From Synechococcus sp. UW140 (lineage in GTDB: Bacteria > Cyanobacteriota > Cyanobacteriia > PCC-6307 > Cyanobiaceae), in contig CAMAPJ010000012.1 in the NCBI GenBank assembly GCA_945860085.1, forward strand, positions 1 to 44,651: DNA of 44,651 nt, written 5' to 3'. Position 1 is the stretch's first letter. Each line of letters opens with the position of its first letter. A program made the position numbers and the translations under genes. Below are positions 1,827 to 18,100 of the stretch, piece after piece. The notes below the pieces were generated by a model. It searched no databases and was not told the DNA's origin. It worked only from the letters and a program-made list of their open reading frames with translations.

Positions 1827-2714
1827 CTAAACAAAAGCCTTGTCAATGGTCACATCGGGATAATCCCTTAGGATTGGCAGGTATGCGTGAGAAAGCATTT
1901 CCAGTAAGCCAAGTATTTTCGGACTCTCCTCCAGGCCACGTAAAACGACTAGCGATTCTTTAGCCTCAAACCCACACTCACAATTCACCACATCAAAGTG
2001 ACTGAACTCAGGCAATAACAAGGTAGGAGATATAAAAAATGTTGACTGCCTCTTGCTTGGCGGCCCATCAGGACCACCATCATCATCGCAAGAATAGCCT
2101 CCGTAAAGAGAGTCAAACAAATGCGAGCCACATTCTTTTGTGGTCGTCGAGGCAAACGGAAAGGGATTAAATGACGCAATGCGCCCGACATCCTGACTAG
2201 TGAGATTAGATTCACCGAACAGGGGATTCCCTGCTTCTTGGATACCACAAAGTAGCAAGGGAGCCTTGTAAAGGTCGAAGTAAAAAAAGGTTGGATCGTT
2301 ATCTGCTGGGCGCTGAACAGGTTCGGCAATCAAGGCATCAATCACCCGATCTTCAAGCAACCTCAAGGCCGCCCCTACCGGCTCCTTCTTCCTGGCCGGA
2401 TTCAGCATCCAGTCTGGGTCTAACCGGCTGCTCAACAGGCGGCTTGCGCCATAGGGCGCATGCAACCTGAGCCTGCTCCTGCCTGAGAGGCGATAGAGCT
2501 GGTGCACTTCCCGTTCCATCTGTACCAAGCTGCTATTGCCAGCCAGCTGATGGAGATCTAGGGCGCGATTGGGCTTGAGCTGGAAGGTTTTGAGGGCATG
2601 CTGACTGCGCCGGCTGATCGTACTTTGGTTGCAATAGCCCAGCAGGGCCGCATCATCGCCATTGCAAAGCCAGCACATCAGGTCAAGAGCCTCTAGCTCC
2701 TCGGGAGTGACCAT
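1827..2714 (-). CDS. LysR-like HTH transcriptional regulator, copy B
   Basis: A 295-residue paralogue of the gene at 303-1211, starting at ATG 2714 where copy A has GTG. The N-terminal HTH (residues about 10-46, with STISRR) and the adjoining linker are almost unchanged. Residues about 150-245 are very different, including an acidic-glycine stretch and altered spacing. The last 45 residues (from CGFEAKESLVVLRG) are again conserved. This fits two regulators with the same DNA specificity but different ligand pockets. A perfect 15-base palindrome with a T-N11-A core lies 96 bases upstream of its start, so self-regulation or mutual regulation is plausible. The TM2-like gene upstream shares its strand. 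Confidence 0.75.
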   Translation of the reverse strand: MVTPEELEALDLMCWLCNGDDAALLGYCNQSTISRRSQHALKTFQLKPNRALDLHQLAGNSSLVQMEREVHQLYRLSGRSRLRLHAPYGASRLLSSRLDPDWMLNPARKKEPVGAALRLLEDRVIDALIAEPVQRPADNDPTFFYFDLYKAPLLLCGIQEAGNPLFGESNLTSQDVGRIASFNPFPFASTTTKECGSHLFDSLYGGYSCDDDGGPDGPPSKRQSTFFISPTLLLPEFSHFDVVNCECGFEAKESLVVLRGLEESPKILGLLEMLSHAYLPILRDYPDVTIDKAFV

Positions 2715-2809
2715 GCAACTTTTGGAACTAACTTAGTAAATCTAAAGACTCGATGACCGACTAGATCACTATCTTTAGAAAAAATACGGCCAAACCCATG
2801 ACTCATTTA

Positions 2810-2824
2810 TTGCAATTATTGCAA
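2810..2824. promoter_or_regulatory. Perfect palindromic LysR-type box
   Basis: TTGCAATTATTGCAA is a perfect dyad with 7-base arms around a central T and contains the T-N11-A signature. It sits between the stop codon of the TM2-like gene (2879) and the start of regulator B (2714), upstream of the likely regulator promoter. The equivalent site before copy A differs at one base. Binding by either regulator is inferred. Confidence 0.55.
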
Positions 2825-2878
2825 GGATTCAGTGATTCCAGTACCTTTGCGGTTGTTGCTGTTGCCGCTAAGCAGCCC

Positions 2879-3172
2879 TCAGTCCTGGCGGGCGCGACGG
2901 ACGGCCAGGCCAGCTTCCACCGCCGTCACCGCGGCTAGCAGCAGCAAGCCGGACAGACCGATCAGTTGGTGGCGCTGGGTCAGGGCCGCTTCCTCTTGGC
3001 CGCCAAGCAAGGCACCGGCAACAAACCAGCTGGTGGCCAGGGCCGAGGTAAGCCAGTAGGCGCGCCAGCGTCGTTGATAGAGATAGCCCGTTCCCAGGCC
3101 CGGCACCACATTGAGCAGCCCCGCCACCCAGCCGCTGGATGCGGCCAGAATCTCCTGCTTGCTCGGGGTCAT
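2879..3172 (-). CDS. Small TM2-like membrane protein
   Basis: A 97-residue protein. Residues 12-33 are hydrophobic with a glycine-rich turn (VVPGLGTGYLYQRRW) typical of TM2-like and related small membrane proteins. Two more membrane segments follow at about 40-57 and 70-88, and the C-terminus is basic (RRARQD). Similar short proteins are widespread in picocyanobacteria, with no assigned function that I know of. It lies upstream of regulator B on the same strand, separated by 164 bases that carry the palindromic box. Its second half is duplicated as a fragment at 1378-1541. Confidence 0.65.
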   Translation of the reverse strand: MTPSKQEILAASSGWVAGLLNVVPGLGTGYLYQRRWRAYWLTSALATSWFVAGALLGGQEEAALTQRHQLIGLSGLLLLAAVTAVEAGLAVRRARQD

Positions 3173-3323
3173 GGCTGCGGTCGATCGTGGATCGCTGCAA
3201 TCTGGCGGATGGACAGCCCTGTTGGTGGCCCGTAGAATGGCCCAGGTGGCCTACCTGGCCGAACCCTGGAGCTACCGCTGCCACCAAGGCCGCAGCCCCC
3301 AACCCATGGAACCTGCTCGCCTG

Positions 3324-3387
3324 CTCCAGTTGGCGATCCCCAGGTGCTAGCGCTGCTTGGTTCCCCAACTGGAGTTGGGGAACCAAG
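3324..3387. repeat. Nested perfect inverted repeats
   Basis: CTTGGTTCCCCAACT (3356-3370) is followed, after two bases, by its exact reverse complement (3373-3387), giving a 15-base perfect stem. A further CTCCAGTTGG at 3324-3333 is the reverse complement of 3365-3374, so alternative pairings exist. The structure lies just before the fetB remnant. It could be a REP-like element, a cruciform or the scar of a rearrangement. No transposase is nearby. Confidence 0.6.
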
Positions 3388-3429
3388 TGCGGAAAGAAGT
3401 GAGGCAAGGAGTGGAACGGGAGCCCTGCC

Positions 3430-3799
3430 GATCAGCGATGGGCGTCTGGCCCTGGTGGGGGATCATTCGGCCCCAGCCCTGGTTTGCGCCCCAGTATTGG
3501 ATTCCTCTTTTAGGGATGGTGCTGGGCAACACCCTCCCTGGCAACTCCCTGGGGCTCGATCGGCTGATGGAGTCGTTTTCGATGCTGGTGATGGGGCTGG
3601 TCAGCCTGCCCGGGATGATGACCGGCCAGATCCTGCAGGGGGGCGCCCCGAGCGCCGCGGTTCGCTAGCAGATCGTGATCCTGTTGATGATTGCGGCCGC
3701 CACTGCATTGGGCCTGGTGTTGGTGTTGCGGCTCTCCCACCTCAGGCTCACCAGCCGCAACCACCAGCTCCGCCAAGAGCGGCTCACTCTGGTGGCTTG
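3430..3799 (+). pseudogene. fetB remnant (UPF0014 iron-export permease)
   Basis: The frame reads a FetB-type core: WWGIIRPQPWFAPQYWIPLL, then GMVLGNTLPGNSLGLDRLMES, then GLVSLPGMMTGQILQGGAP, then SAAVR. After AVR there is an in-frame TAG (3667-3669). Beyond it the frame continues with the normal C-terminal helix (QIVILLMIAAATALGLVLVL) to a TGA at 3799. Three lesions are visible. About the first 100 residues of a roughly 260-residue FetB are missing. A stretch of about 45 residues between LDRLMES and GLVSLPG is deleted. The amber stop is the third. No fetA ATPase is nearby. The permease normally works with FetA in metal export, so its loss beside a metal-efflux island is notable. Confidence 0.8.
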
Positions 3800-3813
3800 A
3801 AATCTGCTCAATA

Positions 3814-3847
3814 AGCCCGGCCTTGGTCTAGATACCAAGACCGGGCT
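3814..3847 (+). terminator. Hairpin after the fetB remnant
   Basis: AGCCCGGCCTTGGT (3814-3827) pairs with ACCAAGACCGGGCT (3834-3847) with a single mismatch and a six-base loop. It lies 15 bases past the remnant's final stop and 75 bases before the first ATPase. There is no T-run, so rho-independent activity is uncertain. Confidence 0.5.
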
Positions 3848-3921
3848 CTGCTCTCCAGGTTCGCCCCAGACAGGTCGAAGGGCGCCCTAACTAAGGTATC
3901 GGCTCCAAGCCTTCAGCCTGC

Positions 3922-6684
3922 TTGACGCCCCTTGATCAGCCCCACTGGCACAGCCTCAGTGCCCAGGATTGCCTGACCCAGCTGGAGGCCAACCAGCAGG
4001 GGCTCAGCAGCGCCGAAGCCGCCGAGCGGCAGCAACGCAGCGGACCCAACCGGCTGGAGCTGGCGGCGGGTCGCAGCAGTCTGGCGATCCTCTGGGACCA
4101 GTTCAGCAACGTGATGTTGTTGTTGTTGCTGGCAGTGGCAGCGATTTCAGCCACAATTGCCTTTAGCACCAACAAGTTTCCCAAGGACGCGATCGCGATT
4201 GTGCTGATCGTGGCCCTCAATGCCCTGCTCGGCTATCTGCAGGAAAGCCAGGCCCAGAAAGCCTTACTGGCCCTGCGCCAGATGGCCCAGCCCCTGGTAA
4301 CGCTGCGGCGTGACGGCCAGTGGCAACGCCTGCCCAGTGAGCAATTGGTGCCGGGCGACCTAATCCGGCTCGAGGCCGGCGATCGGGTCCCGGCCGATGC
4401 CCGCTTGCTCGAGGTCGCCGACCTGGGCGTGCGCGAGGCCGCCCTAACTGGCGAAGCCGAGGCGGTATTTAAACGGGCCGACCTGCTGCTCGATCCGGCT
4501 ACGCCCGTGCTGGAACGCCAGAACTGTCTTTTCCAGGGCACCGAAGTGGTGCGCGGCCGCAGTACTGCCGTGGTGACCGCCACCGGCATGGCCACCGAAC
4601 TAGGCCAAATCGCCCAGCTGATCAATACCGCCGGCGGCGAAAGCACGCCCCTGCAGAAACGTCTCGACGGCCTGGCCTCGGTGCTGGTCGGCTCGGCCCT
4701 CGGCCTGGTGGCTCTGGTGATCGGGATCGGCTGGTTATTGGGCCAGCCCCTGCTCAACCTGCTGGAAGTGTCCCTATCGATGGCCGTGGCGATCGTGCCC
4801 GAGGGTCTGCCGGCCGTGATCACCGTGACCCTGGCGATCGGCACCCAGCGCATGGTCAAACGCGCCGCCCTAATCCGACGCCTGCCCGCGGTGGAGGCCC
4901 TTGGTTCGGTCACCGTGATCTGCTCGGACAAAACCGGCACCCTCACTTTGAACCGCCAGGTGGTCGAAGAGCTGCGCTGCGGCAGCCAGGCGATCACCGT
5001 CAGCGGCCAGGGCTACGAGCCCCGGGGCGACTTCACTGCCCACAATCTCGAGGCCCCCGCCGGCCTAGCCGCCGGGATCGCCCCTGGCGCCCTGGAGCTA
5101 CTGCTGCAAGCGGGGGTTCTGTGCAGCGACGCTGAACTCAAGCGCGAGGCGGATGGCAAGGTCGACATCCTCGGCGATCCCACCGAAGGGGCCTTGGTTG
5201 TGGCTGCCGCCAAGGCGGAGATCGACGACTTCAGCCTGCGGGCGGACTATCCCCGCCAGGGCGAGATTCCCTTCAGCTCAGAGCGCCAGTGGATGGCGGT
5301 CTGGGTTCAGGATCTGAGCGGGCACCTCCAGGCGCCCCTCGGCCCCATGGCTGCGGACTCGAGGGTGTTAATGATCAGTAAGGGAGCTCCTGAGGTGGTG
5401 CTCTCCAGCTGCGACCGCTGGTTGGCGGCCCCAGGAGTGGTCGCCTTAGCCGAAGGCGAGCGCAGTTGGTGGCTGGATCAGGCCCGGCAACTGGCGGCTA
5501 GGGGCCTGCGGGTGCTGGCCTTTGCCTGCGCTCCCCACCACCGGGGCCCCGAACAGGAGGCCGACCAGCTGGTGTTTCTGGGGTTGATGGCCCAGCTTGA
5601 TCCGGCCCGTCCCGAGGTGGGTGCCTCAGTGGCCACCTGCCGGGAAGCCGGCATCCGGCCGGTGATGATCACCGGCGACCATCCCCTTACGGCCCGGGCG
5701 ATCGGCGCCAGCATCGGCCTAAGCAGCGCCGATGCTGAAGTGGTGCTCGGCCGCGAGTTGCAGGGCTACAACGACACGGAATTACAGGCGGTGGTCGACC
5801 GCTGCAGCCTCTACGCCCGGGTGCCGCCCGAGCAGAAGCTGAGGATTGTCAAAGCTCTGCAGGCCAACGGCGAGGTGGTGGCGATGACCGGCGATGGCGT
5901 CAACGACGCCCCGGCCCTCAAACAGGCCCACATCGGCGTCGCCATGGGCATCACCGGCACGGAAGTGAGCAAGGAAGCGGCCGATATGGTCTTACTGGAT
6001 GATAATTTCGCCACGATTGTGAGCGCGGTTGAAGAAGGGCGACTGGTGTATGCCAACATCCGGCGCTTCGTTAAATACATCCTTGGCAGCAATGTTGGTG
6101 AATTAATCACGATTGCGGCGGCGCCCCTACTCGGCCTCACCGGGGTGCCCCTGTCGCCGCTGCAGATTCTCTGGATGAACCTGGTCACCGATGGTGTGCC
6201 CGCCCTCGCCTTGGCCCTCGAACCTGGCGAAGAGGGCCTGATGCAGCGGCCGCCGGCCCAGCCGGGGGAATCGATTTTCGCCCGGGGCATCGGCCGTTAC
6301 ATCCTGCGCATCGGCATTGTCTTCGCAGCGATCACGATTGCCTTGATGGCCTACTCCGCCCGCAGCGGAGCCCCCTGGCAGACGATGGTGTTCACCACCC
6401 TGTGCCTGGCCCAAATGGGCCATGCCCTCGCCGCCCGCAGCGACCGGCCCCTGATCCAGGTGGCGCCCTTCTCCAACCCGGCCCTGCTGGCGGCGGTGGT
6501 GTTGACTTCGGCCCTGCAACTAGCCCTGCTCTACGTGCCGGTGCTCTCGAACTTCTTTGGCACAACGCCCCTGACCCTGCATGAACTGGGCATCTGCGTT
6601 GGCGTGAGCGCCCTGTTCTTCCTCTATCTGGAGGCGGAAAAAGTGGTGCGTCTCTGGCGTCGCCGGCGGGCCGCCCACGCCTGA
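3922..6684 (+). CDS. P2A-type cation-transporting ATPase (calcium pump-like)
   Basis: A 920-residue pump that moves a cation across a membrane using ATP. An N-terminal cation-ATPase domain (residues about 5-65) precedes M1 and M2. The actuator loop carries LTGEA near 176. M4 has PEGLP with Glu294, the position of SERCA Glu309. The phosphorylation site DKTGTLT starts at Asp336. The hinge reads GDGVNDAPALKQA, and M6 has NLVTDG (Asn753, Asp757). This set is that of PacL/SERCA-like P2A pumps, so Ca2+ (or Mn2+) export is likely but not proven. Translation appears to start at TTG 3922, since the N-domain begins directly after it. It is the first gene of a run of cation transporters, and a strong hairpin follows it. 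Confidence 0.88.
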   Translation: MTPLDQPHWHSLSAQDCLTQLEANQQGLSSAEAAERQQRSGPNRLELAAGRSSLAILWDQFSNVMLLLLLAVAAISATIAFSTNKFPKDAIAIVLIVALNALLGYLQESQAQKALLALRQMAQPLVTLRRDGQWQRLPSEQLVPGDLIRLEAGDRVPADARLLEVADLGVREAALTGEAEAVFKRADLLLDPATPVLERQNCLFQGTEVVRGRSTAVVTATGMATELGQIAQLINTAGGESTPLQKRLDGLASVLVGSALGLVALVIGIGWLLGQPLLNLLEVSLSMAVAIVPEGLPAVITVTLAIGTQRMVKRAALIRRLPAVEALGSVTVICSDKTGTLTLNRQVVEELRCGSQAITVSGQGYEPRGDFTAHNLEAPAGLAAGIAPGALELLLQAGVLCSDAELKREADGKVDILGDPTEGALVVAAAKAEIDDFSLRADYPRQGEIPFSSERQWMAVWVQDLSGHLQAPLGPMAADSRVLMISKGAPEVVLSSCDRWLAAPGVVALAEGERSWWLDQARQLAARGLRVLAFACAPHHRGPEQEADQLVFLGLMAQLDPARPEVGASVATCREAGIRPVMITGDHPLTARAIGASIGLSSADAEVVLGRELQGYNDTELQAVVDRCSLYARVPPEQKLRIVKALQANGEVVAMTGDGVNDAPALKQAHIGVAMGITGTEVSKEAADMVLLDDNFATIVSAVEEGRLVYANIRRFVKYILGSNVGELITIAAAPLLGLTGVPLSPLQILWMNLVTDGVPALALALEPGEEGLMQRPPAQPGESIFARGIGRYILRIGIVFAAITIALMAYSARSGAPWQTMVFTTLCLAQMGHALAARSDRPLIQVAPFSNPALLAAVVLTSALQLALLYVPVLSNFFGTTPLTLHELGICVGVSALFFLYLEAEKVVRLWRRRRAAHA

Positions 6685-6702
6685 TTGCCCTTCACCATCG
6701 CC

Positions 6703-6731
6703 CCACGGCATGGCGCCATGCCATGCCGTGG
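6703..6731 (+). terminator. Strong hairpin between the two ATPase genes
   Basis: CCACGGCATGG (6703-6713) and CCATGCCGTGG (6721-6731) form an 11-base perfect stem with a 7-base loop, 19 bases after the first ATPase stop. There is no T-tract. It could attenuate or terminate transcription before the second ATPase, or stabilise an mRNA end. Confidence 0.45.
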
Positions 6732-6816
6732 ATGCACGGCGGAACCCCAGCAGGGGCGACCCATCGCCGGCGCCCGGGCCATTCCTCGCTAATCAAGGGG
6801 GATTGATCGCGCCGCC

Positions 6817-9171
6817 ATGGGGTTGCTTGAGCCCACCAACCTGCTGCTGCTGGCCTGCGCCCTGATCTATGGCCTGATCGGCGAGACGATCGATGGCGCC
6901 ATCCTGCTGGTGTTTGTGGCGGCGATCGCCCTGCTCGATGCCCTGCAACAACAACGCAGCAACCGGGCCCTGGCCGAACTGGCGCGCCTGTCGGCCCCGA
7001 AGGCCCATGTGCGCCGGGCCGGGGTGGCCCTGGAGCTCCCCGCCGACCAACTGCTGGTCGGCGATCTGCTGCGACTGGAGGAGGGAGATCGGATCGCAGC
7101 CGATGCCCGGGTGGTTGATGCCTTGGGCCTGTGGCTGGATGAATCCCTGCTCACGGGTGAATCCCTGCCGGTGCCGAAATCAGACCCCGGCAGCCTGCTC
7201 CTGGCAGGATCGCTGGTGGCCAGTGGCCGGGGCTGGGCCGAGGTAGTAGCCGTGGCCGGGGCCACGGAACTGGGCCGGCTCGGCGCCAGCCTGGCCGGCG
7301 TTCAGCCGCCGCCCACCCCCCTGCAGCGGCAGACCCGGCGCCTGACCTCGCGGCTGACGCTCTGGGCCCTGGGCCTTTGCCTGGTTCTGGCCCTGGCTCA
7401 AGTTGGAATGGGCGGCTCCTGGTCTGGGGCCCTGCTGGCGGCCCTGGCCCTGGCTCTAGCCCTGCTGCCCAATGAGATTCCGGTGGTGCTGGCCTTGTTT
7501 TTGGCCCTCGGCGCCCTGCGCCTGGCCCGGATCGGGGTGCTGGCCCGTTGGCCGGCGGCGGTGGAAAGCCTGGGCAGTGCCACGGTGCTGGCCGTCGATA
7601 AAACCGGCACCCTCACCGAGAACCGCATGGGGGTGCAGCAGCTGCTCACCTGGCCGGAGCAGGAGCTTTGGCAGCGGGGCCAACCCCTGGGCGAAGCCTT
7701 CCACCGGCTGGTGGAGCGGGCGGTGCTGGCCAGCCGCGGCGATCCGGTTGATGCGATGGAACAGGCGATCCAGCGCCTGGCCACAGACCAGCTCGACGGC
7801 AGCGAGCACCTCCACCCGGACTGGCCTCTGCAGCGGGAATACCCCCTGCAGAGTGACTTGTTGGTGTTTTCGCGGCTCTGGCAGACCGGCGGGGGCAGCA
7901 GTCAACTGGCAGCCAAGGGGGCCCCGGAGGCCATCGCCGACCTGTGCCATCTGCCGGCTGACCCGGCCCGGCGGCTACTGGCGGCAGCCGACCGGTTGGC
8001 TACAGCGGGCCTGCGGGTGCTGGCCGTGGCCCAGGGCCTGGATGGTTCCCGGCTCCATGGCGGCGAACCCCTGCCGGCCAGTGGCGAGCCGCCCAGCAAC
8101 GTCCACGATTTTCTGTTTGAACCGCTGGGACTGATCGCCCTGGCCGATCCCCTACGCGCCGATGCCGCCGCTGCGATTGCCACGGCCCGCTCGGCCGGGG
8201 TACGGGTGGTGATGATCACCGGCGATGGTCCGGTTACGGCCCGCTCGATCGCCGATCAGGCCGGCCTGCCGCCGGGGCCGGTGCTCTGCGGCGCCGATCT
8301 GGCCGGTCTGGGCCCTGCCGGCCTGGCGGACCAGGTCGCCAAGGTGTCGGTGTTTGCCCGGGTAATGCCCCGGCAGAAACTGATGCTGGTGCAGGCCCTG
8401 CAGGCGGCCGGCGAGGTGGTGGCCATGACCGGTGATGGCGTCAATGACGCCCCGGCCCTGAAGGCCGCCGACATCGGCGTGGCCATGGGGCTCCGCGGCA
8501 CGGCCGTGGCGCGGGAATCGGCCGATCTGGTGTTGCTGAATGACACCTTCAGCGACCTGGTACGGGCCCTGGCCCTGGGGCGTCGCGTCGATGCCAACCT
8601 GCACCGGGCCCTGGGCTACACCTTGGCGATCCACCTACCGATCGCGGCCCTAGGCCTGGTGCCCCTGGTCTGGCCCGGCCAGGGCATGATCCTGTTGCCA
8701 GTGCACATCGCCCTGCTGCACCTGGTGATCGATCCGGCCTGCACGGTTGTGTTTGAAGCCCTGCCAGGGGCGCCGGAGTTGATGGGCCAGCCGCCGCGCC
8801 CGCCAACGGCGCCCCTGTTCGGGCTGGCCACCTGGCGCCGCGCCCTGGTCCAGGGAGCGGTGGTGATGCTGGCGGCCCTAGCCCTGGTCTTCTGGCCAAC
8901 CAATGATCCCGAGCTACGCCGCAGCTTGGTGTTTTCGCTGCTGCTGCTCACCAGTGGCGCCCTGGTGTGGCTGAACGGCGATCGGGCCAGCCGGCTCAGC
9001 GCCGCCGGCGCCGTCCTTGGCCTTGGCCTCTGGCTGGCTTTGCTGACGATCCCTGGCCTGATGCCGTTACTGAGCCTGGGCCCATTGCAGACTCCCCAGA
9101 TCATCACGGTGGTGGCGAGCGCGGTGATCACCTCCCTGCTGGCAGCCCTCCTGACCCGCAGCCCCACCTAG
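6817..9171 (+). CDS. P2-like cation ATPase, N-terminally short
   Basis: A 784-residue P-type ATPase. DKTGTLT starts at Asp261, the actuator motif LLTGES is near 113, and the hinge reads GDGVNDAPALKAADIGVAMG. It begins almost directly at M1 (EPTNLLLLACALIYG), so the usual 60-80 residue cation-ATPase N-domain is missing. An in-frame TAA at 6790 rules out extension upstream. M4 reads LLPNEIPVV, placing Asn219 where SERCA has Glu309. M6 reads HLVIDPACTVVFE rather than NLVTDG. This M6 pattern belongs to a little-studied bacterial P2-like subgroup, so the transported ion cannot be stated. The gene ends 5 bases before the CDF start, so the two are probably cotranscribed. Confidence 0.82.
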   Translation: MGLLEPTNLLLLACALIYGLIGETIDGAILLVFVAAIALLDALQQQRSNRALAELARLSAPKAHVRRAGVALELPADQLLVGDLLRLEEGDRIAADARVVDALGLWLDESLLTGESLPVPKSDPGSLLLAGSLVASGRGWAEVVAVAGATELGRLGASLAGVQPPPTPLQRQTRRLTSRLTLWALGLCLVLALAQVGMGGSWSGALLAALALALALLPNEIPVVLALFLALGALRLARIGVLARWPAAVESLGSATVLAVDKTGTLTENRMGVQQLLTWPEQELWQRGQPLGEAFHRLVERAVLASRGDPVDAMEQAIQRLATDQLDGSEHLHPDWPLQREYPLQSDLLVFSRLWQTGGGSSQLAAKGAPEAIADLCHLPADPARRLLAAADRLATAGLRVLAVAQGLDGSRLHGGEPLPASGEPPSNVHDFLFEPLGLIALADPLRADAAAAIATARSAGVRVVMITGDGPVTARSIADQAGLPPGPVLCGADLAGLGPAGLADQVAKVSVFARVMPRQKLMLVQALQAAGEVVAMTGDGVNDAPALKAADIGVAMGLRGTAVARESADLVLLNDTFSDLVRALALGRRVDANLHRALGYTLAIHLPIAALGLVPLVWPGQGMILLPVHIALLHLVIDPACTVVFEALPGAPELMGQPPRPPTAPLFGLATWRRALVQGAVVMLAALALVFWPTNDPELRRSLVFSLLLLTSGALVWLNGDRASRLSAAGAVLGLGLWLALLTIPGLMPLLSLGPLQTPQIITVVASAVITSLLAALLTRSPT

Positions 9172-9176
9172 GAGCC

Positions 9177-10181
9177 ATGGCCCAGCCCAATCACCACAGC
9201 CATGGTCAAGACCACAGCCCTAGTCCTGACTACAGCCCTAGTCCTGGTTATAGCCATGCCCATAACAACAGCCCTGGCGCCGCGGCCAGCCATCCGGCGG
9301 TAGCGATCCAGCGCCAGCCCCATCCGCGCCAGCACCAGCACCGCAGCGGCTCAGCGACCGCCTTTCGCTGGAGCGTGATCCTCAACAGCGGCCTCTCAGC
9401 CCTGCAGCTGGTGATCGGTTTTGGCTTCGGCTCCCTGGCCCTGATCGGCGATGCGGTCCACAACCTGGGCGACGTGGCCGGCCTGTTGCTCGGCTGGGGG
9501 GCGGAACGGCTGAGCAGTCGCGCCCCAAACGAACGATTCACCTACGGCTTTGGCCGCAGCACCCAGCTGGCCTCCCTGGCTAACGCGGTGTTGATCCTGA
9601 TGGCCTCGGCCGTGGTGCTGATGGAGGGGATCAAACGCCTCGGCCAAACCACCGAAGTGATCAGCACGCCAGTGGCCTGGGCCGCCGCCATCGGTATCGC
9701 CGTGAATCTGTTTTCGGCTCGCCTGTTCGGCCACGACAGCAGCCACGACCTCAACCGCCGGGCGGCGGTGATCCATCTGCTGGGCGATGCGGCGGTGTCG
9801 GCGGCGGTCTTGCTCAGCGCCATCATCGTGGGGCTGACTCACTGGTACTGGCTCGATGCCGCCACTGGCATCGGGGTCGGCCTGGCCGTGGCATGGACCG
9901 GCTGGGGCCTGCTGCGCGATGCCATGCAGGTGGCCCTTGATGCCGTGCCGCCTGGCATTGAGATAGCAGCCGTGGACCAGGCCCTGCGCAATTTGAAAGG
10001 GGTGCTTGATGTCCACCACCTGCATGTCTGGGGCATGAGCACCTCCCAGATCGCCCTCACCGCCCACATGGTGCGCCAGCCCCTGGATGTCGACGACATG
10101 GAGCTGCTGCATCAGGCCAAGGAGCGCCTGGCCGAACTGGGCATCGCCCACAGCACAATCCAACTGGAACCGCCGACCTGA
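9177..10181 (+). CDS. CDF zinc/cadmium-type efflux transporter
   Basis: A 334-residue cation diffusion facilitator. ATG 9177, with GGAG five bases upstream, is chosen as start because the frame further upstream lies inside the ATPase gene. The first 60 residues are rich in His, Ser and Pro and include a near-repeat (HSPSPDYSPSPGYSHAH) that may bind metal. Six membrane helices follow. The metal site is His95-xxx-Asp99 (DAVHNLGD) in TM2 and His200-xxx-Asp204 (HLLGD) in TM5. In characterised CDF proteins the H/D pattern goes with Zn2+ and Cd2+ rather than Mn2+. The C-terminal cytoplasmic domain contains LHVWGMS. The gene is coupled to the ATPase before it and is a paralogue of 13888-14892. Confidence 0.9.
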   Translation: MAQPNHHSHGQDHSPSPDYSPSPGYSHAHNNSPGAAASHPAVAIQRQPHPRQHQHRSGSATAFRWSVILNSGLSALQLVIGFGFGSLALIGDAVHNLGDVAGLLLGWGAERLSSRAPNERFTYGFGRSTQLASLANAVLILMASAVVLMEGIKRLGQTTEVISTPVAWAAAIGIAVNLFSARLFGHDSSHDLNRRAAVIHLLGDAAVSAAVLLSAIIVGLTHWYWLDAATGIGVGLAVAWTGWGLLRDAMQVALDAVPPGIEIAAVDQALRNLKGVLDVHHLHVWGMSTSQIALTAHMVRQPLDVDDMELLHQAKERLAELGIAHSTIQLEPPT

Positions 10182-10300
10182 GGCCAGGCCCGGGCGGGCC
10201 ATTGCACCGAGCCCTGCCATTCCCACAGCCAGTCCCACGGCAACGGCCACTGAGACTGCCACCGCGACGGCCACTGCCACTGCCACGGAGCGGAGCTGGG

Positions 10301-10335
10301 CTGAACTGAACTGAGCTGAGCTGAGCTGAGCTGAG
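10301..10335. repeat. CTGAG/CTGAA pentamer repeat
   Basis: Seven tandem pentamers (two CTGAA, then five CTGAG) follow GCCACTGCCACTGCCACGG hexamer-like repeats. They lie in the 265-base gap between the CDF gene and the lipoprotein gene and are immediately followed by a HIP1 octamer (10339-10346). No coding role is apparent. A slippage-prone tract of this kind may vary in length between strains. Confidence 0.85.
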
Positions 10336-10449
10336 CAGGCGATCGCCGCATTCAACAGCAATCGCGCCCAGGGACTTGCTGTAGAGCTGCAGAGGCTTGC
10401 TGAATCGGCCCGGTCTGGACCCAGGATGGGGCTCGCTCTGGAGTGAGTG

Positions 10450-10878
10450 ATGGTCAACCGGGATCCACGCGCCATGGACAAGTCCAGCCAGGGGCAACTG
10501 GGCCAGGGCCCTGTCGCCAGAACTGGACGGCCCGGGCGGGGCGCCAAGCCCCCAGGGCTGCTCGGACTGGCGCTTTTGCTGGGGCTGGGACTGGCCAGCT
10601 GCGCCGATCCCAATGCCTGGAAGCGCACCGCCTGTGAACAGGCCAAGGCCCAGCTGGGCGAGGCCACCGTGCAGCAGGTTGAGCTGTTGCGTAAGGCCCT
10701 GGGGCTGGCCGCCGAGGTGGATCCGGTGGCCTACTGCCGCTCGATCGGCGCCGCCATGGGCAACGCCGCCCCAAGCTCGGCTCCAGGCCAGAACCCGACT
10801 TCTGCGCCAAACGCCATGCCAACCAGCTCGCCCACGGGCCGGCCCCTGTCGGCCGCCGAGCAGGCCCCAGGCCGCTGA
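10450..10878 (+). CDS. Putative small lipoprotein
   Basis: About 142 residues from ATG 10450; GTG 10447 and ATG 10474 are alternatives. A basic N-region is followed by a leucine-rich segment (GLLGLALLLGLGLASC) ending in a lipobox-like LASC. This suggests a lipid-modified, periplasm-facing protein. The mature part has two further Cys residues (TACEQ and AYCRS) around a short amphipathic helix and ends in a Pro/Ser/Ala-rich tail of low complexity. I do not recognise the family. It lies between a zinc-type CDF exporter and a two-component system, so an accessory role in metal sensing or handling is possible but untested. Confidence 0.5.
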   Translation: MVNRDPRAMDKSSQGQLGQGPVARTGRPGRGAKPPGLLGLALLLGLGLASCADPNAWKRTACEQAKAQLGEATVQQVELLRKALGLAAEVDPVAYCRSIGAAMGNAAPSSAPGQNPTSAPNAMPTSSPTGRPLSAAEQAPGR

Positions 10879-10953
10879 ACCGGACCTTGTCACCTAGGCG
10901 CCAACCAGGCCCATGCCAGCCTGGCTCCGGCCCAGCGCAGGACTCCCCCACGG

Positions 10954-11640
10954 TTGAAACTCCTGGTGGTGGAAGATGACGCCCAGTTGCGGGGCGCCCT
11001 GATCCAGCTACTGGGGCGCTGGGGGTACGCCTGTGAGGGCAGCGGCGACGGTGCCTCGGCCCTGGCCTTGCTGGAGGTCCAGCCTTTTGATCTGGTGTTA
11101 CTGGATCTGGGCTTGCCGGGGGTTGATGGGTTGGAGGTCTGCAAGCGGCTGCGCCAGCTCCCGGGCCACCAGCCCCTGGTGTTGATGCTCACCGCCCGCG
11201 ATGCCAGTGGTGACAAGGTGCGCGGCCTTGATAGCGGCGCCGACGACTACCTGGTCAAACCCTTTGAACCGGCCGTGCTGCAGGCCCAGGTGCGGGCCCT
11301 GCTGCGCCGCCGCGGCCGGCCCCTAGACGTGGATCTCAGCTGGGGGCCCCTGCGGCTGATTCCGGGCCAGAGCGTCCTCTGGATCGAGGGCCAGCCCCTG
11401 GCCATCACCCGCAAGGAAGCCCTGCTGCTGGAAATGCTGCTGCGGCGCCAGGGGCAATGCTCCAGCAAGCAGGAGTTGCTCTCGGGCAGTTCCGCCAGTT
11501 GTCGGGAGGTGGGCGAGGCCACGATCAAGGCCCACATCCGTAACCTGCGCAGCAAGTTGACCAACGCCGGCTGCCGGGCCGATCTGATTGAAACCGTCTA
11601 CGGCCTTGGCTATCGCCTCAACCCCAGCGCCCTCGCCTGA
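10954..11640 (+). CDS. OmpR/PhoB-family response regulator
   Basis: A 228-residue two-component regulator. The receiver domain (residues 1-115) has the acidic pair Glu7/Asp8/Asp9, phosphoacceptor Asp51 (LLDLGLPG) and the conserved Lys in LVKPF. The C-terminal winged helix (about 130-225) contains TIKAHIRNLRSKL and ends in the usual YGLGYRL. The start is TTG 10954, giving the standard MKLLVVEDD opening. It overlaps the histidine kinase frame downstream, so the two form a pair. It resembles cyanobacterial RppA/NrsR-like and related regulators, some of which control metal efflux. Its position amid cation transporters suggests it regulates them. Confidence 0.88.
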   Translation: MKLLVVEDDAQLRGALIQLLGRWGYACEGSGDGASALALLEVQPFDLVLLDLGLPGVDGLEVCKRLRQLPGHQPLVLMLTARDASGDKVRGLDSGADDYLVKPFEPAVLQAQVRALLRRRGRPLDVDLSWGPLRLIPGQSVLWIEGQPLAITRKEALLLEMLLRRQGQCSSKQELLSGSSASCREVGEATIKAHIRNLRSKLTNAGCRADLIETVYGLGYRLNPSALA

Positions 11641-13072
11641 TCCGCTGCGGCTCAAACGGCGACTGGGGCTACAGGGGGCCGGCTTTGCCCTGCTGTTAAT
11701 GGGAACCTTTACCGCCGCGATGTACTTGGGCATCGCCGCCCAACGCCAGGAGGATCTGCGCGGCGAACTGCGCCAGCTGGCCGCCAGCGCTGCCTCCCAG
11801 CTACCCCTGATCGCCCACGAAGCCCATGAGGTGGGCAATGCCCGTAAGTTCAACAACGATCGCGCCGTGGTGGCCCTGCCGGAGCGCAACCCCCAGCGAT
11901 TGCAGTGGTTTGACGCCGATGGCCGTCTCTTAAACGACCAGGGCCAGCTGGCCCTGCCGCCCCTTGCTGGGCTTGGTAAAGCGCCTAGATCTGGGGCAAC
12001 TGGACAAGACGTCCACCCAGGCAGCACGCCCCCAGCCCTCTGGCAGCGCTGGCCTGGGGGCCTCAGCCTCTGGCAGCCGGTGTACACCCGGCCCCGCCAG
12101 GCTTCGGGGTCGGGGTCGGGTCAAGGAGCTGGCTCCGCCCAGTTCAGCGGCTCAGTGCGGGTGGCCCTTTCCAACCAGGCCGCCCTGGCGGACCTCCGCC
12201 GGCTGCAACGGGGCCTGCTGCTCGGGGCGATCGCGGCCGTGCTCTCAGCCCTAGTGGTGGGGCGGCGCATGGTGCAGGCGGCCTTCGCCCCCTTGCAACA
12301 ACAAGTAGACGCGCTGCAACGGTTCAGCGGCGAGGTTTCCCACGAATTGCGCCACCCGCTCACCAACCTGCGCACCCTGCTCGCTGCCGCGCCGGACTCG
12401 ACGGATCCGGCCAGCCGCCGGTTGCTGGCCCAGGTCGATCGCCTGGCGGCCCAGATGGGAGCCCTGCTCAACGACCTGCTGTTTCTGGCCCGCGAGGAGC
12501 AGGGCCTCGAACCCGGCCTGGGCCAGCACAAACGCTGGCGCCGCTTTGACCTGCTCGAACTCCTCGATGACCTGCTGCAGAACCACCAGCTCCAGGCGGC
12601 CCAGCGCGGCATCCAGCTGAGCCTGGACGCCCCCGCCGGCATCGAAGCCCTAGCCGTCACGGCCGAGGCCGAGCCCCTGCAACGGCTGTTCACCAACCTG
12701 CTGCTCAATGCCTTACGCCACAGCCCCCGCCATGGCCGGGTCACGGTCAAGGTGAGGGCCCTTCACCTGAAGGGCGTCGGCGCGAGGCTGGTGGTGGAGG
12801 TGGTCGACGCGGGGCCGGGCATTGCCGCCGCCGATCGGGAGCGGATCTTCGAGCGCTTCTGGCGGGGCGTGCCGCCCGAGGAACAGGGCCAAAAGGACAG
12901 CGGGGGAACGGCTTATCAGGATCCCAGCAGCCCCGAAGCCCAGGCGATCGAACCCAGCGGCCTTGGTCTGGCGATTGCCCGCGCCATTGCCCGCCAGCAG
13001 GGCGGCGAGCTCAAGCTGGTCGCAGCCGATCCCGGCCACTGCGTGTTTGCCGTTGAGTTGCCCTGGGGATGA
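11588..13072 (+). CDS. Sensor histidine kinase
   Basis: Up to 494 residues from TTG 11588. This start overlaps the response regulator by 53 bases; TTG 11606 is an alternative. TM1 is at about 29-51, and a periplasmic domain of about 150 residues follows. TM2 is at about 208-226. The dimerisation box is FSGEVSHELRHPL with His252. The ATPase domain has an N-box (LLLNALRHS), DAGPGIA and GLGLAIARAIARQQGG. The periplasmic domain is the likely sensor. It has no obvious His or Cys cluster, so the stimulus is not readable. The last codons (PWG, stop) lie inside a 16-base tandem repeat. Confidence 0.85.
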   Translation: MKPSTALAIASTPAPSPDPLRLKRRLGLQGAGFALLLMGTFTAAMYLGIAAQRQEDLRGELRQLAASAASQLPLIAHEAHEVGNARKFNNDRAVVALPERNPQRLQWFDADGRLLNDQGQLALPPLAGLGKAPRSGATGQDVHPGSTPPALWQRWPGGLSLWQPVYTRPRQASGSGSGQGAGSAQFSGSVRVALSNQAALADLRRLQRGLLLGAIAAVLSALVVGRRMVQAAFAPLQQQVDALQRFSGEVSHELRHPLTNLRTLLAAAPDSTDPASRRLLAQVDRLAAQMGALLNDLLFLAREEQGLEPGLGQHKRWRRFDLLELLDDLLQNHQLQAAQRGIQLSLDAPAGIEALAVTAEAEPLQRLFTNLLLNALRHSPRHGRVTVKVRALHLKGVGARLVVEVVDAGPGIAAADRERIFERFWRGVPPEEQGQKDSGGTAYQDPSSPEAQAIEPSGLGLAIARAIARQQGGELKLVAADPGHCVFAVELPWG

Positions 13073-13134
13073 GTTGCCCTGGGGATGGCCTGGCCTGGGG
13101 ATGGTCTGCCCTGGGGATGGTCTGCCCTGGGGTT
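13055..13134. repeat. Five tandem 16-base repeats over the kinase stop codon
   Basis: Five consecutive 16-base units ending in CCTGGGGAT or CCTGGGGTT run without gaps. The first two are identical (GAGTTGCCCTGGGGAT), and units four and five differ only at the penultimate base. The kinase stop codon (13070-13072) is formed where unit one meets unit two. Changes in repeat number would leave the protein end unaffected but alter the spacing to the next gene. Confidence 0.9.
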
Positions 13135-13191
13135 AACAGCCCCCCTGAGGCTTGAGGTCTGACCACGATCTGCCCTGGATCTGACGCAACC

Positions 13192-13213
13192 TTGACGACT
13201 TTTTGACCGCTTT
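13192..13213 (+). promoter_or_regulatory. Adjacent 11-base direct repeats upstream of the GDT1-type gene
   Basis: TTGACGACTTT (13192-13202) is followed immediately by TTGACCGCTTT (13203-13213), with two mismatches. OmpR/PhoB-family regulators often bind direct repeats with 11-base periodicity, and such a regulator is encoded 1.6 kb upstream. The site ends 18 bases before ATG 13232. It could also contribute a -35-like TTGAC. Binding is inferred only. Confidence 0.35.
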
Positions 13214-13231
13214 CAGGCCAGGGTTGGTGTC

Positions 13232-13888
13232 ATGAGCTTTCCTTTAGTCGCTAGTGATCCAGGCCTGGCGGCCTTTGGATCGAGTCTCACGGCCATCTCC
13301 CTGGCGGAACTGGGGGACAAGACCTTCTTCATGGCCCTGATCCTGGCGGCCCGCCATCGGCCCCGCTGGGTGTTCATCGGCGCCTTCGCGGCCCTGGCCG
13401 CCGTCACCGTGATCTCCCTGGGCCTGGGCTACGGCCTACGGGAGTTGTTACCACCGGGCCTGGTGCCCTGGCTGGCCGCCGCCCTGTTCCTGGGCTTCGG
13501 CCTCAAGCTGCTGATTGACGCCCAGGCGATGGAGGCCGATGCGGCCCAAGACGAAGCGCAGGATGCCGAAGCGGCCGTCAATGCAGCGGAGGTGGGCCAG
13601 TCGATCGCCACGGCCTGGGCCGTGATTTGGGAAGCGTTTGCCCTTGTGTTCATCGCCGAACTGGGCGATCGCACCCAGTTCGCCACGATTTTTCTGGCTA
13701 CGGCCCCTTCCTTCAGTTTTGCCGGACTCCTGGCCGGCAGCCTGGTGGGCCACGGCCTAGTGACCTGGCTTGCGGTCGGCGCCGGCCAATGGATCGGCGG
13801 CCGCATCAGTGAACGGATGCTGTATCGCCTCAGCGCCGGCCTATTCCTGCTGTTTGGCCTGGCCTCCCTGCGCCAGGCCCTCGGCTGA
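13232..13888 (+). CDS. GDT1/TMEM165 (UPF0016) family cation transporter, Mnx-like
   Basis: A 218-residue membrane protein with two homologous halves of three helices each. Each half carries the family signature: SLAELGDKTFF near residue 26 and IAELGDRTQFA near 145. The halves are joined by an acidic linker (EADAAQDEAQDAEA). Cyanobacterial and plant members (Mnx, PAM71, CMT1) move Mn2+ or Ca2+ across thylakoid or plasma membranes to prevent Mn toxicity and supply photosystem II. The length is typical. Its stop overlaps the start of the next CDF gene (TGATG), so the two are translationally coupled. An 11-base direct repeat lies just upstream. Confidence 0.9.
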   Translation: MSFPLVASDPGLAAFGSSLTAISLAELGDKTFFMALILAARHRPRWVFIGAFAALAAVTVISLGLGYGLRELLPPGLVPWLAAALFLGFGLKLLIDAQAMEADAAQDEAQDAEAAVNAAEVGQSIATAWAVIWEAFALVFIAELGDRTQFATIFLATAPSFSFAGLLAGSLVGHGLVTWLAVGAGQWIGGRISERMLYRLSAGLFLLFGLASLRQALG

Positions 13889-14892
13889 TGGGATCGAACC
13901 CTCCTGCCCAGAGCAGTTATCCCCCCGGCAGCCATCCCCCCGGCAGCCATCCCCCCGGCAGCCATGGCGATCCCAGCGATCGCGTCGATGATCACGATCA
14001 CGACCCCAGGCAGGGGCAGGGACACCAAGGCCCTGGCTTAAGCCCAGGCGCGGCCTTCCGCTGGAGCCTCCTGCTCAACAGCCTGCTGACCGGGCTACAG
14101 CTGGTGATTGGCCTGGGTTTCGGCTCCCTGGCCCTGGTGGGGGACGCGCTGCACAACCTCGGAGATGTCGTGGGTCTGGCCCTGGGCTGGGGGGCGGATC
14201 GGCTCAGCCGCCAGGCCCCCCGAGGCCGCTTCACCTATGGCTTTGGCCGCAGCACCCAGCTGGCCTCCCTGATCAACGGCTCGCTGACCTTCCTGGCCGG
14301 GGCCGTGGTGGTGGTGGAAGCCCTGCAACGGGTCCAGCATCCGGTGCCGATCCAGGTGGCCCCCGTGGCCCTGGCCGCAGTCGCTGGCATTGCCATCAAC
14401 CTGGTTTCCGCAAGCCTCTTCGGCCACAACCACCACCACGACCTCAACCAGCGGGCGGCGGTGTTGCACCTGATCACCGATGCGGCCGTGTCCGTGGCGG
14501 TCTTAGCCAGTGCCCTGCTAATAGGGGCCAGCGGCTGGCTCTGGCTCGATGCCCTGACAGCAATTGCCGTCGGAGGGGTCGTGATGGCCAGCGCCTGGGG
14601 CTTGCTGCGCGAGGCCCTGGCCGTCAGCCTCGATGCGGTGCCGGCGGGAATCGATCTGGCTGCGATTGAAGCCGCTTTGCGGGCCTTGCCCGGGACCATC
14701 GATGTGCAGGCCCTGCACGTCTGGGGGATCAGCAGCTCGACAACCGCGCTGACGGCCCGACTGCAGCGGCTCGAGCAAGCCCCTTATGACAGCAATGCCA
14801 TCTTAAAACTGGCCCAACAGCAACTCAGAGCCCTGGGCATTGACAAGGCCACCTTGCAGTTGGAAATCGTTCCTCCCAAAACCATGGTTTGA
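13888..14892 (+). CDS. Second CDF zinc/cadmium-type efflux transporter
   Basis: A 334-residue cation diffusion facilitator, paralogous to 9177-10181. The N-terminus has three PPGSH units and an acidic-His stretch (DRVDDHDHDP). Metal-site residues are His89/Asp93 (DALHNLGD) in TM2 and His194/Asp198 (HLITD) in TM5, again the zinc/cadmium pattern. The loop after TM4 has a histidine cluster (FGHNHHHDL), where the paralogue has FGHDSSHDL. The start codon overlaps the stop of the GDT1-type gene. Two similar exporters with different loops may differ in affinity or metal preference. Confidence 0.9.
   Translation: MGSNPPAQSSYPPGSHPPGSHPPGSHGDPSDRVDDHDHDPRQGQGHQGPGLSPGAAFRWSLLLNSLLTGLQLVIGLGFGSLALVGDALHNLGDVVGLALGWGADRLSRQAPRGRFTYGFGRSTQLASLINGSLTFLAGAVVVVEALQRVQHPVPIQVAPVALAAVAGIAINLVSASLFGHNHHHDLNQRAAVLHLITDAAVSVAVLASALLIGASGWLWLDALTAIAVGGVVMASAWGLLREALAVSLDAVPAGIDLAAIEAALRALPGTIDVQALHVWGISSSTTALTARLQRLEQAPYDSNAILKLAQQQLRALGIDKATLQLEIVPPKTMV
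13921..13965. repeat. Three identical 15-base repeats in the CDF N-terminus
   Basis: Three exact copies of CCCCCCGGCAGCCAT encode PPGSH three times. Because the unit is a multiple of three, gain or loss keeps the frame and changes only the length of the possibly metal-binding N-terminal tail. Confidence 0.9.
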
Positions 14893-15184
14893 GACGCGTT
14901 CAATCCGGAATCGCTGAGGCAGGAAGCCCCAGGCAGCAGCAAAAAGCCAACCCAGAACCCCTGACCCCAGAACGCTGAAACCCCGGGGGACAAAGCAGCA
15001 AACCTGAGATCGCGGGGACTCCCCCAATGACGACGGCGAGGAACTGATCCGAACGACTTTTGAGCCCTAACCGCAGAATTCCAGAAGGCCACACCTTGGG
15101 CTGAACGACCGCCCTTCGGCTTGAACCAGCACTCACGCCAGCTGGCTTGCGAAGATCAACGGCCCCCTTGCCTTAGCCCCGCCG

Positions 15185-18100
15185 ATGCCGCTCACCGCCC
15201 TGGTTCGCCAGCTCCAGCAGGTGACCCTCACCGGTGAAGTGCTGGAGCGCAGCAAGCGGCCCGAGCGGTTGCGCCTCAGCGGTGCCGGTCGGGCAGCCAG
15301 GGCCCTGGTCAGCAGCGCCCTGGCCTCAGCGGCAGGAGCGCCCCTGCTGGTGGTGGTGCCAACCCTGGAGGAGGCGGGCCGCTGGGCATCCCTACTGGAG
15401 CTGATGGGCTGGAGCAGCAGCCTGCTCTACCCCACCAGCGAGGGCTCCCCTTACGAACCCTTTGATCCCACCAGCGAAATCACCTGGGGCCAGCTGCAGG
15501 TGCTCAGCGAGCTGCTTGATGGGGGTTCCAGCCGGCTGGCGATCGTGGCTACCGAGCGGGCCCTGCAACCCCACCTGCCGCCACCAGCGGCCCTCAAGGC
15601 CCACTGCCACAGCCTGCGCAAGGGCGACAGCATCAACTTAGAGGCCCTTGGCCAAACCCTTAGCCGCCTGGGCTATGAGCGGGTCGCCACGATCGAACAG
15701 GAGGGCAGCTGGAGCCGGCGCGGCGACATCGTTGATGTTTTTCCGGTGAGCGCCGAACTGCCGGTGCGGTTGGAGTTCTTTGGCGAAGAGCTTGAAAAGC
15801 TGCGGGAATTTGACCCCGCCAGCCAGCGCTCCCTCGATGCGATCGAGGTGGTGCGCCTCACCCCCACCGGCCACGGCCCGTTGATCGCCGATGCCCTGCG
15901 GGAGACGATGCCGGCGGGCCTAGAGCAGCTGCTCAGCCCCGAGGCCCTAGATCAGCTGCTGGAGGGCGGCACCCCCGAAGGCATGCGACGCCTGCTGGGG
16001 CTGGCCTATGCCCAGCCGGCCTCCCTGCTCGATTATCTGCCCGCCGCCACCCTGATCGCCATTGATGAGCGGCGCCACTGCTTGGCCCATGGCCAGCAGT
16101 GGTTTGACCACGCCAGCGCCCACTACGGCGATGTAATCGCCGAGCTGGATATCGCCAAGCTGAATATCGCCGAGCTGAAGAACGCGGAACAAGCCTCGGC
16201 GGTCCCCAGGAGCGGGGCTGGCAGCAGCCTGCTGCCAGCCGGCCTGCACATCAGCGCCCGCGAGGCTTTGGAGCAGGCCGAAAGTTTTGCCGGCTTCGAC
16301 CTGGCCGAACTGAACGAAACCGACAACCACGCCAACAGCTTCGATCTGGCCAGCCGCTCGGTGCCGGCCTATCCCAATGCCTTTGGCAAATTGGCAGCCC
16401 TGGTGCGCGACTTCCAGGCGGACAAGGCGCGGGTGTGGCTGCTCTCGGCCCAGCCGTCGCGAGCGGTGGCCCTGCTGGAGGAACACGACTGCATCAGCCG
16501 GTTTGTGCCCAATCCAGCCGATTTCGCCACGATCAACCGGCTGATTGAACAAAACACCCCGGTTGCTCTCAAGACCCGGGGCACGGCCGAACTGGAGGGC
16601 CTGCAACTGCCGGCCTGGAAGCTTGTTTTAATCACAGATCGGGAATTCTTCGGCCAGCAGTCGTTAACAGCAACGGGCTATGTGCGGCGGCGGCGCAAGG
16701 CGGCCAGCCGCACGGTCGATCCTGGCAAGATGCAGCCGGGCGATTTTGTTGTGCACCGCAACCACGGCATCGGCCGCTTTATCAAGCTGGAAAAACTGGC
16801 GATCAGCGGCGAATCCCGCGATTACCTAGTGGTGCAATACGCCGATGGCCTGCTGCGGGTGGCCGCCGACCAACTCGGCAGCCTGGGCCGCTATCGGGCC
16901 AGCACCGATGCCCCGCCCGAGCTCAACCGCATGGGCGGTACGGCCTGGACCAAGGCGAAGGAGCGGGCCCAAAAGGCAGTGCGCAAGGTAGCGCTCGACT
17001 TGGTCAAGCTCTACGCCGAACGGCATCAAGCGCCGGGCTTTGCCTTCCCCGCCGATGGCCCTTGGCAAAGCGAACTCGAAGACTCCTTCCCCTACGAACC
17101 CACCCCTGACCAGCTCAAGGCGATTACCGATGTCAAACGGGACATGGAGCGACCCCAGCCCATGGACCGGTTGGTCTGCGGCGATGTGGGCTTCGGCAAA
17201 ACGGAGGTGGCGATTAGGGCCATCTTCAAGGCGGTAACCGCCGGCAAGCAGGTGGCCCTACTCGCCCCGACCACGGTGCTCGCCCAACAACACTGGCGCA
17301 CCCTCAGTGAACGCTTCGCCCCCTACCCACTCAAGGTGGCCCTGCTCAACCGCTTCCGCACCACACTCGAACGCAAGACAATCCTGGCGGGCCTGGGCGA
17401 GGGAAAGGTTGATGTGGTGGTTGGCACCCACCAGCTACTGGGCAAGGGCACCAACTTCAAGGAACTGGGATTGCTGGTGGTGGATGAGGAGCAGCGTTTT
17501 GGCGTCAATCAGAAGGAAAAGATCAAGGCCCTGCGTAAAGACGTCGATGTCTTGACCCTCTCAGCCACGCCAATCCCCCGCACCCTTTACATGAGCCTCT
17601 CTGGCGTGCGTGAGATGAGCCTGATCACCACGCCGCCGCCCCTGCGCCGGCCGATCAAAACCCACCTCGCCGCCCTCGATGAGGAAGCGGTGCGCAGCGC
17701 CATCCGCCAGGAACTCGATCGCGGCGGCCAGATTTTCTATGTGGTGCCGCGGGTGGAGGGAATCGAGGAGGTAGCCGGCCAGCTGCGCCAGATGGTGCCA
17801 GGCCTGCGCCTGCTGGTGGCCCATGGCCAGATGGCCGAAGGCGAACTGGAAAGCGCCATGGTGGCCTTCAATGCCGGCGAATCCGATCTGATGCTCTGCA
17901 CCACGATCGTGGAAAGCGGCCTCGATATTCCCCGCGTCAACACGATCTTGATCGAGGACGCTCACAAATTTGGCCTGGCCCAGCTCTATCAACTGCGGGG
18001 CCGGGTCGGCCGCAGCGGCATCCAGGCCCACGCCTGGCTCTTCTACCCCGGCGATGCCTCCCTTTCAGAAGCGGCGCGCCAGCGGCTGCGGGCCATCCAG

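Follow-up and report, generated by a model that had tools for sequence, protein, structure and literature searches.

The stretch of DNA analysed here (hereafter the window) is contig C12, 44,651 nucleotides (nt) long, from the genome of Synechococcus sp. UW140. This genome is 2.9 Mb in size, consists of 162 contigs and is about 85% complete. Between positions 3922 and 14892, the window carries eight genes, which code for two P-type ATPases (PATP1 and PATP2), two cation diffusion facilitators (CDF1 and CDF2), a putative lipoprotein, a response regulator, a histidine kinase and a GDT1/UPF0016 transporter (GDT1). A preliminary description had assigned these genes to their families and placed them all on one strand; both points were confirmed, and the strand is the forward one. 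The core of this island is probably a dedicated two-component system, the regulator–kinase pair, which switches on a GDT1/Mnx-type exporter via a direct repeat at 13192–13208 (the box), with the other pumps standing beside the circuit. The features are as follows:

3922–6684, + strand: PATP1, a probable P2A-type ATPase (family matches; closest solved relative human SPCA1)
6817–9171, + strand: PATP2, a short P-type ATPase (PNEIP in M4, no Cation_ATPase_N)
9177–10181, + strand: CDF1, an H/D-type cation diffusion facilitator with a His-rich N-terminus (family matches; start corrected to 9177)
10447–10878, + strand: putative lipoprotein (LASC lipobox in the translation)
10954–11640, + strand: OmpR-type response regulator with receiver and winged helix (Pfam; TTG start)
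about 11606–13072, + strand: histidine kinase with a periplasmic sensor domain (Pfam; TTG at 11606 is the likely start)
11816–11830, + strand: HExxE codons of the kinase (H67-E68-xx-E71, numbered from 11618), candidate metal ligands, invariant in orthologues
13192–13208, + strand: direct repeat TTGAC-N6-TTGAC with an 11-bp period, predicted regulator site (sequence comparison)
13219–13224, + strand: predicted −10 hexamer CAGGGT, 7 nt before the GDT1 ATG (would belong to a leaderless start)
13232–13888, + strand: GDT1/UPF0016 two-domain transporter of the Mnx type, predicted target of the circuit (PF01169)
13888–14892, + strand: CDF2, an H/D-type cation diffusion facilitator, predicted second gene of the regulated transcript (family matches)
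15185–18814: mfd, the next gene downstream

Genes overlapped at two of the seven junctions, regulator/kinase (about 35 nt) and GDT1/CDF2 (1 nt, TGATG), and the many overlapping ends of the preliminary description were thus an overstatement. The remaining five intergenic gaps were, in gene order, 132, 5, 265, 75 and 159 nt. The TTG start of the regulator coincided with the position of an ATG or GTG in orthologues, and the kinase start fell within the 3' end of the regulator gene (about 11606). Pfam matches above the cut-off comprised receiver and winged-helix domains for the regulator and HisKA and HATPase domains for the kinase.

The sensor part of the kinase was searched in 400 genomes of the family, and 39 of them had any match, weak paralogues included. 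A kinase locus was considered testable when the gene after the kinase was readable. The regulator, kinase and GDT1 genes were contiguous, in the same order and on the same strand, in 27 of the 29 testable loci (freshwater-type picocyanobacteria); three of the 27 came from one genome. Carriers of the unit were Vulcanococcus limneticus LL, Cyanobium sp. FACHB-13342, Cyanobium sp. Cruz CV13-4-11, Synechococcus sp. HJ21-Hayes and GreenBA-s, and Microcystis elabens FACHB-917. The form CDF2–regulator–kinase–GDT1 was found at L078, L084, L087, L090, L092, L109 and L044, and the form PATP2–regulator–kinase–GDT1 at L082; PATP2 was divergent at L086. Full-length GDT1 was present in 117 and PATP2 in 66 of the 400 genomes. 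Several genomes had a second, unlinked GDT1 copy. The linked GDT1 was the only full-length copy in the window genome as assembled, and two half-size copies on contig C28 resemble the Hmx1/2 importers of Synechocystis (PMC11649195).

A direct repeat with an 11-bp period (CTCATGACTTCTTCATG, TTCACGACTTCTTCACC; window form TTGACGACTTTTTGACC) was common to the sequences upstream of GDT1. With a weight matrix, all kinase-linked loci showed a strong site immediately in front of GDT1, and no strong site was found in GDT1 loci without the pair. The window site scored 20.6 bits vs 13.4 bits for the next best site in 44.6 kb, with the window genus left out of the training. When 40 genomes were scanned for the exact pattern, 28 matches were obtained: 21 were at GDT1 genes linked to the kinase, 2 preceded a sister regulator (see below) and 5 lay elsewhere. 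The reversed pattern gave one match. In the 2.9-Mb window genome, the single exact match was the one at GDT1, and no box was found before PATP1, PATP2, CDF1 or the lipoprotein gene. Across 50 GDT1 loci, 26 had pair and box, 24 had neither and none was discordant; the tree of these loci needs at least six changes of pair/box state. The repeat at 13192–13208 is accordingly the predicted binding site of the regulator.

The window proteins were also searched by tblastn in five congeners (G001–G005). The full order of the island was kept in one of the five, G002 (L039; the same contig as L143, an uncultured Synechococcus metagenome-assembled genome). Because it is conserved in this sister species, the gene order is not due to chance; it is not, however, a stable unit throughout the genus. 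In the other four congeners (G001, G003, G004 and G005), CDF1–lipoprotein–GDT1 was kept, together with PATP1 on every contig that extends that far; three of these congeners also had mfd in place. All four lacked the regulator, the kinase and an intact CDF2, with a weak CDF2-like stretch in G005, and PATP2 was reduced to about its last 50–60 codons. No kinase was found elsewhere in these four genomes, two of which are <90% complete. In G003 and G005, about 16 regulator codons run directly into the sequence just before GDT1; these residual codons indicate a deletion and not an original absence. The box was deleted in G003 and G005 and had diverged in G001 and G004, where it reads ATGACGACAAGTCGACC or close. 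Loss of the pair in a lineage went along with loss or mutation of the box. Three points are established by the comparison: regulator–kinase–GDT1 is a conserved unit, box and pair occur together, and both are lost together.

PATP2 belonged to the block that was lost together with the pair. CDF1, the lipoprotein, GDT1 and PATP1 do not need the pair, because they persist without it in the four congeners. The lipoprotein had no family match in profile searches and was essentially confined to the genus (6 of 6, plus only weak matches in two other genomes). PATP1, CDF1 and the lipoprotein seem to form a neighbouring genus-specific cluster beside the circuit, and not demonstrably under it. A single operon for all eight genes was rejected on the basis of the gene content of the congeners and the placement of the box. 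The observation is real, in a recomposed form: a conserved, probably self-contained exporter-control circuit inside a lineage-specific cluster of metal pumps.

Some loci deviated from the usual arrangement. At L044/L167 (G036, another genus), CDF2, regulator, kinase, GDT1 and PATP2 stood in one block in this order; kinase and PATP2 each matched in two pieces, and a second GDT1 lay nearby on the opposite strand. The breaks are possibly decay or assembly errors. At L174, L216, L179 and L109, partial or broken regulator or kinase genes still preceded GDT1 and the box was present (weaker at L174 and L216). These loci are apparently intermediate stages of system loss, or assembly errors. At L225, L227, L228 and L235, GDT1 adjoined a CDF1-type gene, with no regulator or kinase in the examined stretch; the pairing of GDT1 with a CDF recurs apart from the two-component system. 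Locus L168, labelled as a Bifidobacterium breve metagenome-assembled genome, had a full-length kinase 31% identical to the cyanobacterial one and an adjoining regulator 50% identical. It is probably a mislabelled or contaminated bin.

The spacing from box to ATG was exactly 22 nt in 22 of 27 distinct sequences. Within those 22, an A at −11 was invariant and a T at −7 was found in 18 (positions numbered with the A of the ATG as 0). The window has a spacing of 23 nt, and its hexamer reads CAGGGT (13219–13224). The conserved −11 A and −7 T would be the pattern expected of the −10 element of a leaderless mRNA, with the box lying over the −35 region about 10 nt upstream. PhoB-type activators use such an arrangement: a direct repeat with an 11-bp period replaces the −35 element, about 10 nt before the −10 element. 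By analogy, we infer activation and a leaderless start of GDT1. No riboswitch (Rfam, including yybP-ykoY, E up to 1) was found in 2700–15300, and a riboswitch upstream of GDT1 as the means of control was rejected for lack of an Rfam match.

In the periplasmic part of the kinase, H67, E68 and E71 were invariant in 20 orthologues. The HExxE motif was also invariant in a sister kinase family, which is about 26–35% identical over the region, and its residues are candidate metal ligands. The AlphaFold2 model of the sensor alone (predicted local distance difference test, pLDDT, 83; predicted template modelling score, pTM, 0.74) has two helices, five strands and a final helix. A fold search with the full kinase gave matches only to kinase cores. 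Sister regulator–kinase loci were seen at L171 (8818–13483), L208 (6931–9798), L209 (6745–9684), L149 (4114–6202) and L170 (9242–11320); L171 belongs to Synechococcus lacustris, and L208 and L209 to two other cyanobacteria. Box-like sites lay near the sister regulator in L149, L170 and L171, and before two RTX genes in L171.

GDT1 matched PF01169 (E=1.2e-41) in two stretches and had both ExGD[KR]T motifs (AELGDKT and AELGDRT). Its best matches in other cyanobacterial families were about 38–51% identical. Characterised GDT1/UPF0016 proteins carry Mn2+, and some also Ca2+ (PMC7380456). CDF1 and CDF2 each had HxxxD pairs in the transmembrane segments TM2 and TM5 (DAVHNLGD/HLLGD and DALHNLGD/HLITD), which is the H/D or Zn2+/Cd2+ type. 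PATP1 had PEGLP in M4 and a Cation_ATPase_N domain, and scored 644.5 bits vs the TIGR01522 cut-off of 798.3; its closest solved structure was human SPCA1, annotated as a calcium-transporting ATPase. SPCA1 pumps Mn2+ as well. PATP2 did not fit the P2A pattern, with PNEIP in 23 of 23 sequences, no Cation_ATPase_N and 333.6 bits vs 798.3 for TIGR01522. Mn2+ is most likely the ion handled by the circuit, and Ca2+ is a serious rival. Export of Zn2+/Cd2+ may ride along through CDF2. Joint handling of Zn/Cd and Ca/Mn would depend solely on CDF2, as an H/D-type protein, sharing the predicted GDT1 transcript in this species.

The PATP2 group comprises the window gene (6817–9171) and genes at L080, L082, L086, L095–L108, L113 and L114. 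Its members have about 790 amino acids, are without the N-terminal cytosolic segment and share a conserved HLVIDPACT in M6. Homologues in other cyanobacteria are about 48–50% identical and mostly have longer frames (about 875–980 amino acids). A frameshift behind the short PATP2 was rejected because its orthologues are likewise short, with starts at about the same position.

Elsewhere in the window, two closely similar tandem open reading frames (303–1211 and 1827–2714, both on the − strand) have a common N-terminus (MVTPEELEALDLMCWLCNGDDAALLGYCNQSTISRRS) and seem to have arisen by recent duplication; the encoded protein may bind DNA. Short tandem repeats occurred at 10300–10340 before the lipoprotein gene (GAGCT-type units) and at 13066–13130 after the kinase (CCTGGGGATGG-type units). 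These are perhaps slippage-prone spacers at module borders.

In the proposed mechanism, the periplasmic HExxE sensor of the kinase would detect an excess of divalent metal outside the cytoplasmic membrane, with Mn2+ as the likeliest ion and Ca2+ as the main alternative. The kinase would phosphorylate the OmpR/PhoB-type regulator encoded just before it. The phosphorylated regulator would bind the direct repeat at 13192–13208, a site that would stand in for the −35 element, and RNA polymerase would transcribe GDT1 and the overlapping CDF2 into a leaderless mRNA. The two transporters would then expel the metal. Binding by the regulator, activation over repression, the leaderless start, the identity of the metal and the direction of export are the steps that we infer.

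Several observations weigh against this mechanism or against Mn2+ as its metal. In Cyanobium FGCU52 (L161, 9338–12340) and FGCU6 (L159, 9235–11215), GDT1 does not follow the kinase, and no 11-bp repeat was found between the kinase and the next gene; in FGCU52, a CDF takes this place. It is possible that the regulator was retargeted in these strains. Only two independent contrasts lie on well-supported branches of the tree of GDT1 loci, and a sign test therefore cannot reach significance. The 26/24 split is partly circular because many of these loci had also served to train the matrix, a circularity that is smaller for the scan with the genus left out and for the exact genome scan. The sensor model had no match in the PDB at E≤0.001; there were weak matches only, some of them to Cache/PDC-type ligand domains. 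Moreover, in L171, L208 and L209 the sister pairs have RTX-type Ca2+-binding repeat proteins as neighbours, and this points to Ca2+ as much as to Mn2+. The circuit could thus be as proposed, with Ca2+ (or Zn2+/Cd2+/Co2+/Ni2+) as the ion that is sensed and exported. We regard this as a tangible possibility, on the lower side of even: GDT1 proteins can carry Ca2+ (PMC7380456), an H/D-type CDF is on the predicted transcript and a CDF replaces GDT1 in L161, but Mn2+ is the best studied function of cyanobacterial UPF0016 exporters.

The remaining rivals concern the pair, the box and the extent of the circuit. The pair is unlikely to be a ManS/ManR orthologue that moved beside GDT1, in which case the sensor would be known and only the arrangement of the target new. 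Among cyanobacterial two-component systems, only ManSR is known to respond to Mn; it detects Mn2+ in the periplasm, and its control of one Anabaena UPF0016 gene, cited in a review, gives two-component control of a GDT1 gene a precedent (PMC7380456). However, ManS and ManR of Synechocystis are encoded by unlinked genes (slr0640, slr1837) and repress an importer, whereas the present genes adjoin. It is improbable that the box is the site of another factor, or that the regulator represses there. ManR, which is also of the OmpR type, is a repressor, but box and pair were gained and lost together, sister regulators have a similar box before their own genes, and the near-fixed spacing from box to −10 element is typical of activation. 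It is very improbable that the sensor governs all eight genes of the island as a single co-regulated unit for cation homeostasis, even though the genes lie on the same strand with mostly short gaps, one sister species has them in the identical order, four congeners lack PATP2, regulator, kinase and CDF2 jointly, and PATP2 adjoins the pair in several other genomes. The box lies before GDT1 alone, CDF1–lipoprotein–GDT1 survives without the pair, and outside the genus only regulator–kinase–GDT1 is conserved, often with CDF2 or PATP2. The preliminary description had placed all seven transporters and secreted proteins under one sensor. A two-component system is indeed tied to metal exporters, by its adjacency to GDT1 in many genera and by the co-occurring box, but the extension to all seven did not hold, as the only box in the genome precedes GDT1.

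The proposed circuit shares parts with several known systems. ManSR, the only reliably established Mn regulator in cyanobacteria, represses import (PMC7020235, PMC11649195). Like the present pair, ManS/ManR of Synechocystis PCC 6803 consists of an OmpR-type regulator and a membrane kinase with a periplasmic sensor, with a role in Mn homeostasis. It represses the importer operon mntCAB, whereas the present pair is predicted to activate an exporter via a direct repeat (compared by description only); the unlinked ManSR genes, as opposed to the overlapping or adjoining genes here, are weak evidence against orthology. GDT1 resembles Mnx/SynPAM71 (sll0615), MneA, TMEM165 and Gdt1p, which are GDT1/UPF0016 transporters, in being two-domain with both ExGD[KR]T motifs. 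In Synechocystis, Mn does not induce mnx at the transcript level, and no dedicated regulator has been reported (PMC11649195). Most surveyed bacterial UPF0016 genes are under the yybP-ykoY riboswitch (PMC7380456), which is absent here. RppA/RppB (NrsR/NrsS), a cyanobacterial metal-type pair, was among the best-scoring named families for both proteins. This identity was excluded by scores far below the cut-offs (NF041734/NF041735; 157.6 vs 250 and 116.5 vs 400), and the kinase match omits the sensor part. PhoB-type promoters also have an 11-bp-period direct repeat in place of the −35 element, but the present site differs in its half-site sequence, its apparently leaderless target and its being the single strong site in the genome. 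No publication was found that connects a two-component system with GDT1 in picocyanobacteria in this way, which is weak evidence as subscription journals were poorly covered. The system is not mentioned in the metal section of a freshwater picocyanobacterial genome survey (PMC9361551).

The chances are about even that this is an undescribed family of metal-sensing two-component systems (periplasmic HExxE sensor, direct-repeat box with an 11-bp period, leaderless promoter) dedicated to a GDT1/Mnx exporter of freshwater picocyanobacteria. It would provide inducible Mn2+/Ca2+ export distinct from ManSR (by description) and from yybP-ykoY, with a sister branch that controls Ca2+-binding RTX proteins. 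Manganese is needed for photosystem II, yet must be kept from poisoning the cell, and the exporter gene of the model strain gives no Mn response at the transcript level (PMC7020235, PMC11649195). If true, an exporter-activating sensor in freshwater picocyanobacteria would fill this gap in Mn regulation and offer a precise, testable site. By losing pair and box together, some lineages would have gone naturally from regulated export to export that is apparently unregulated.

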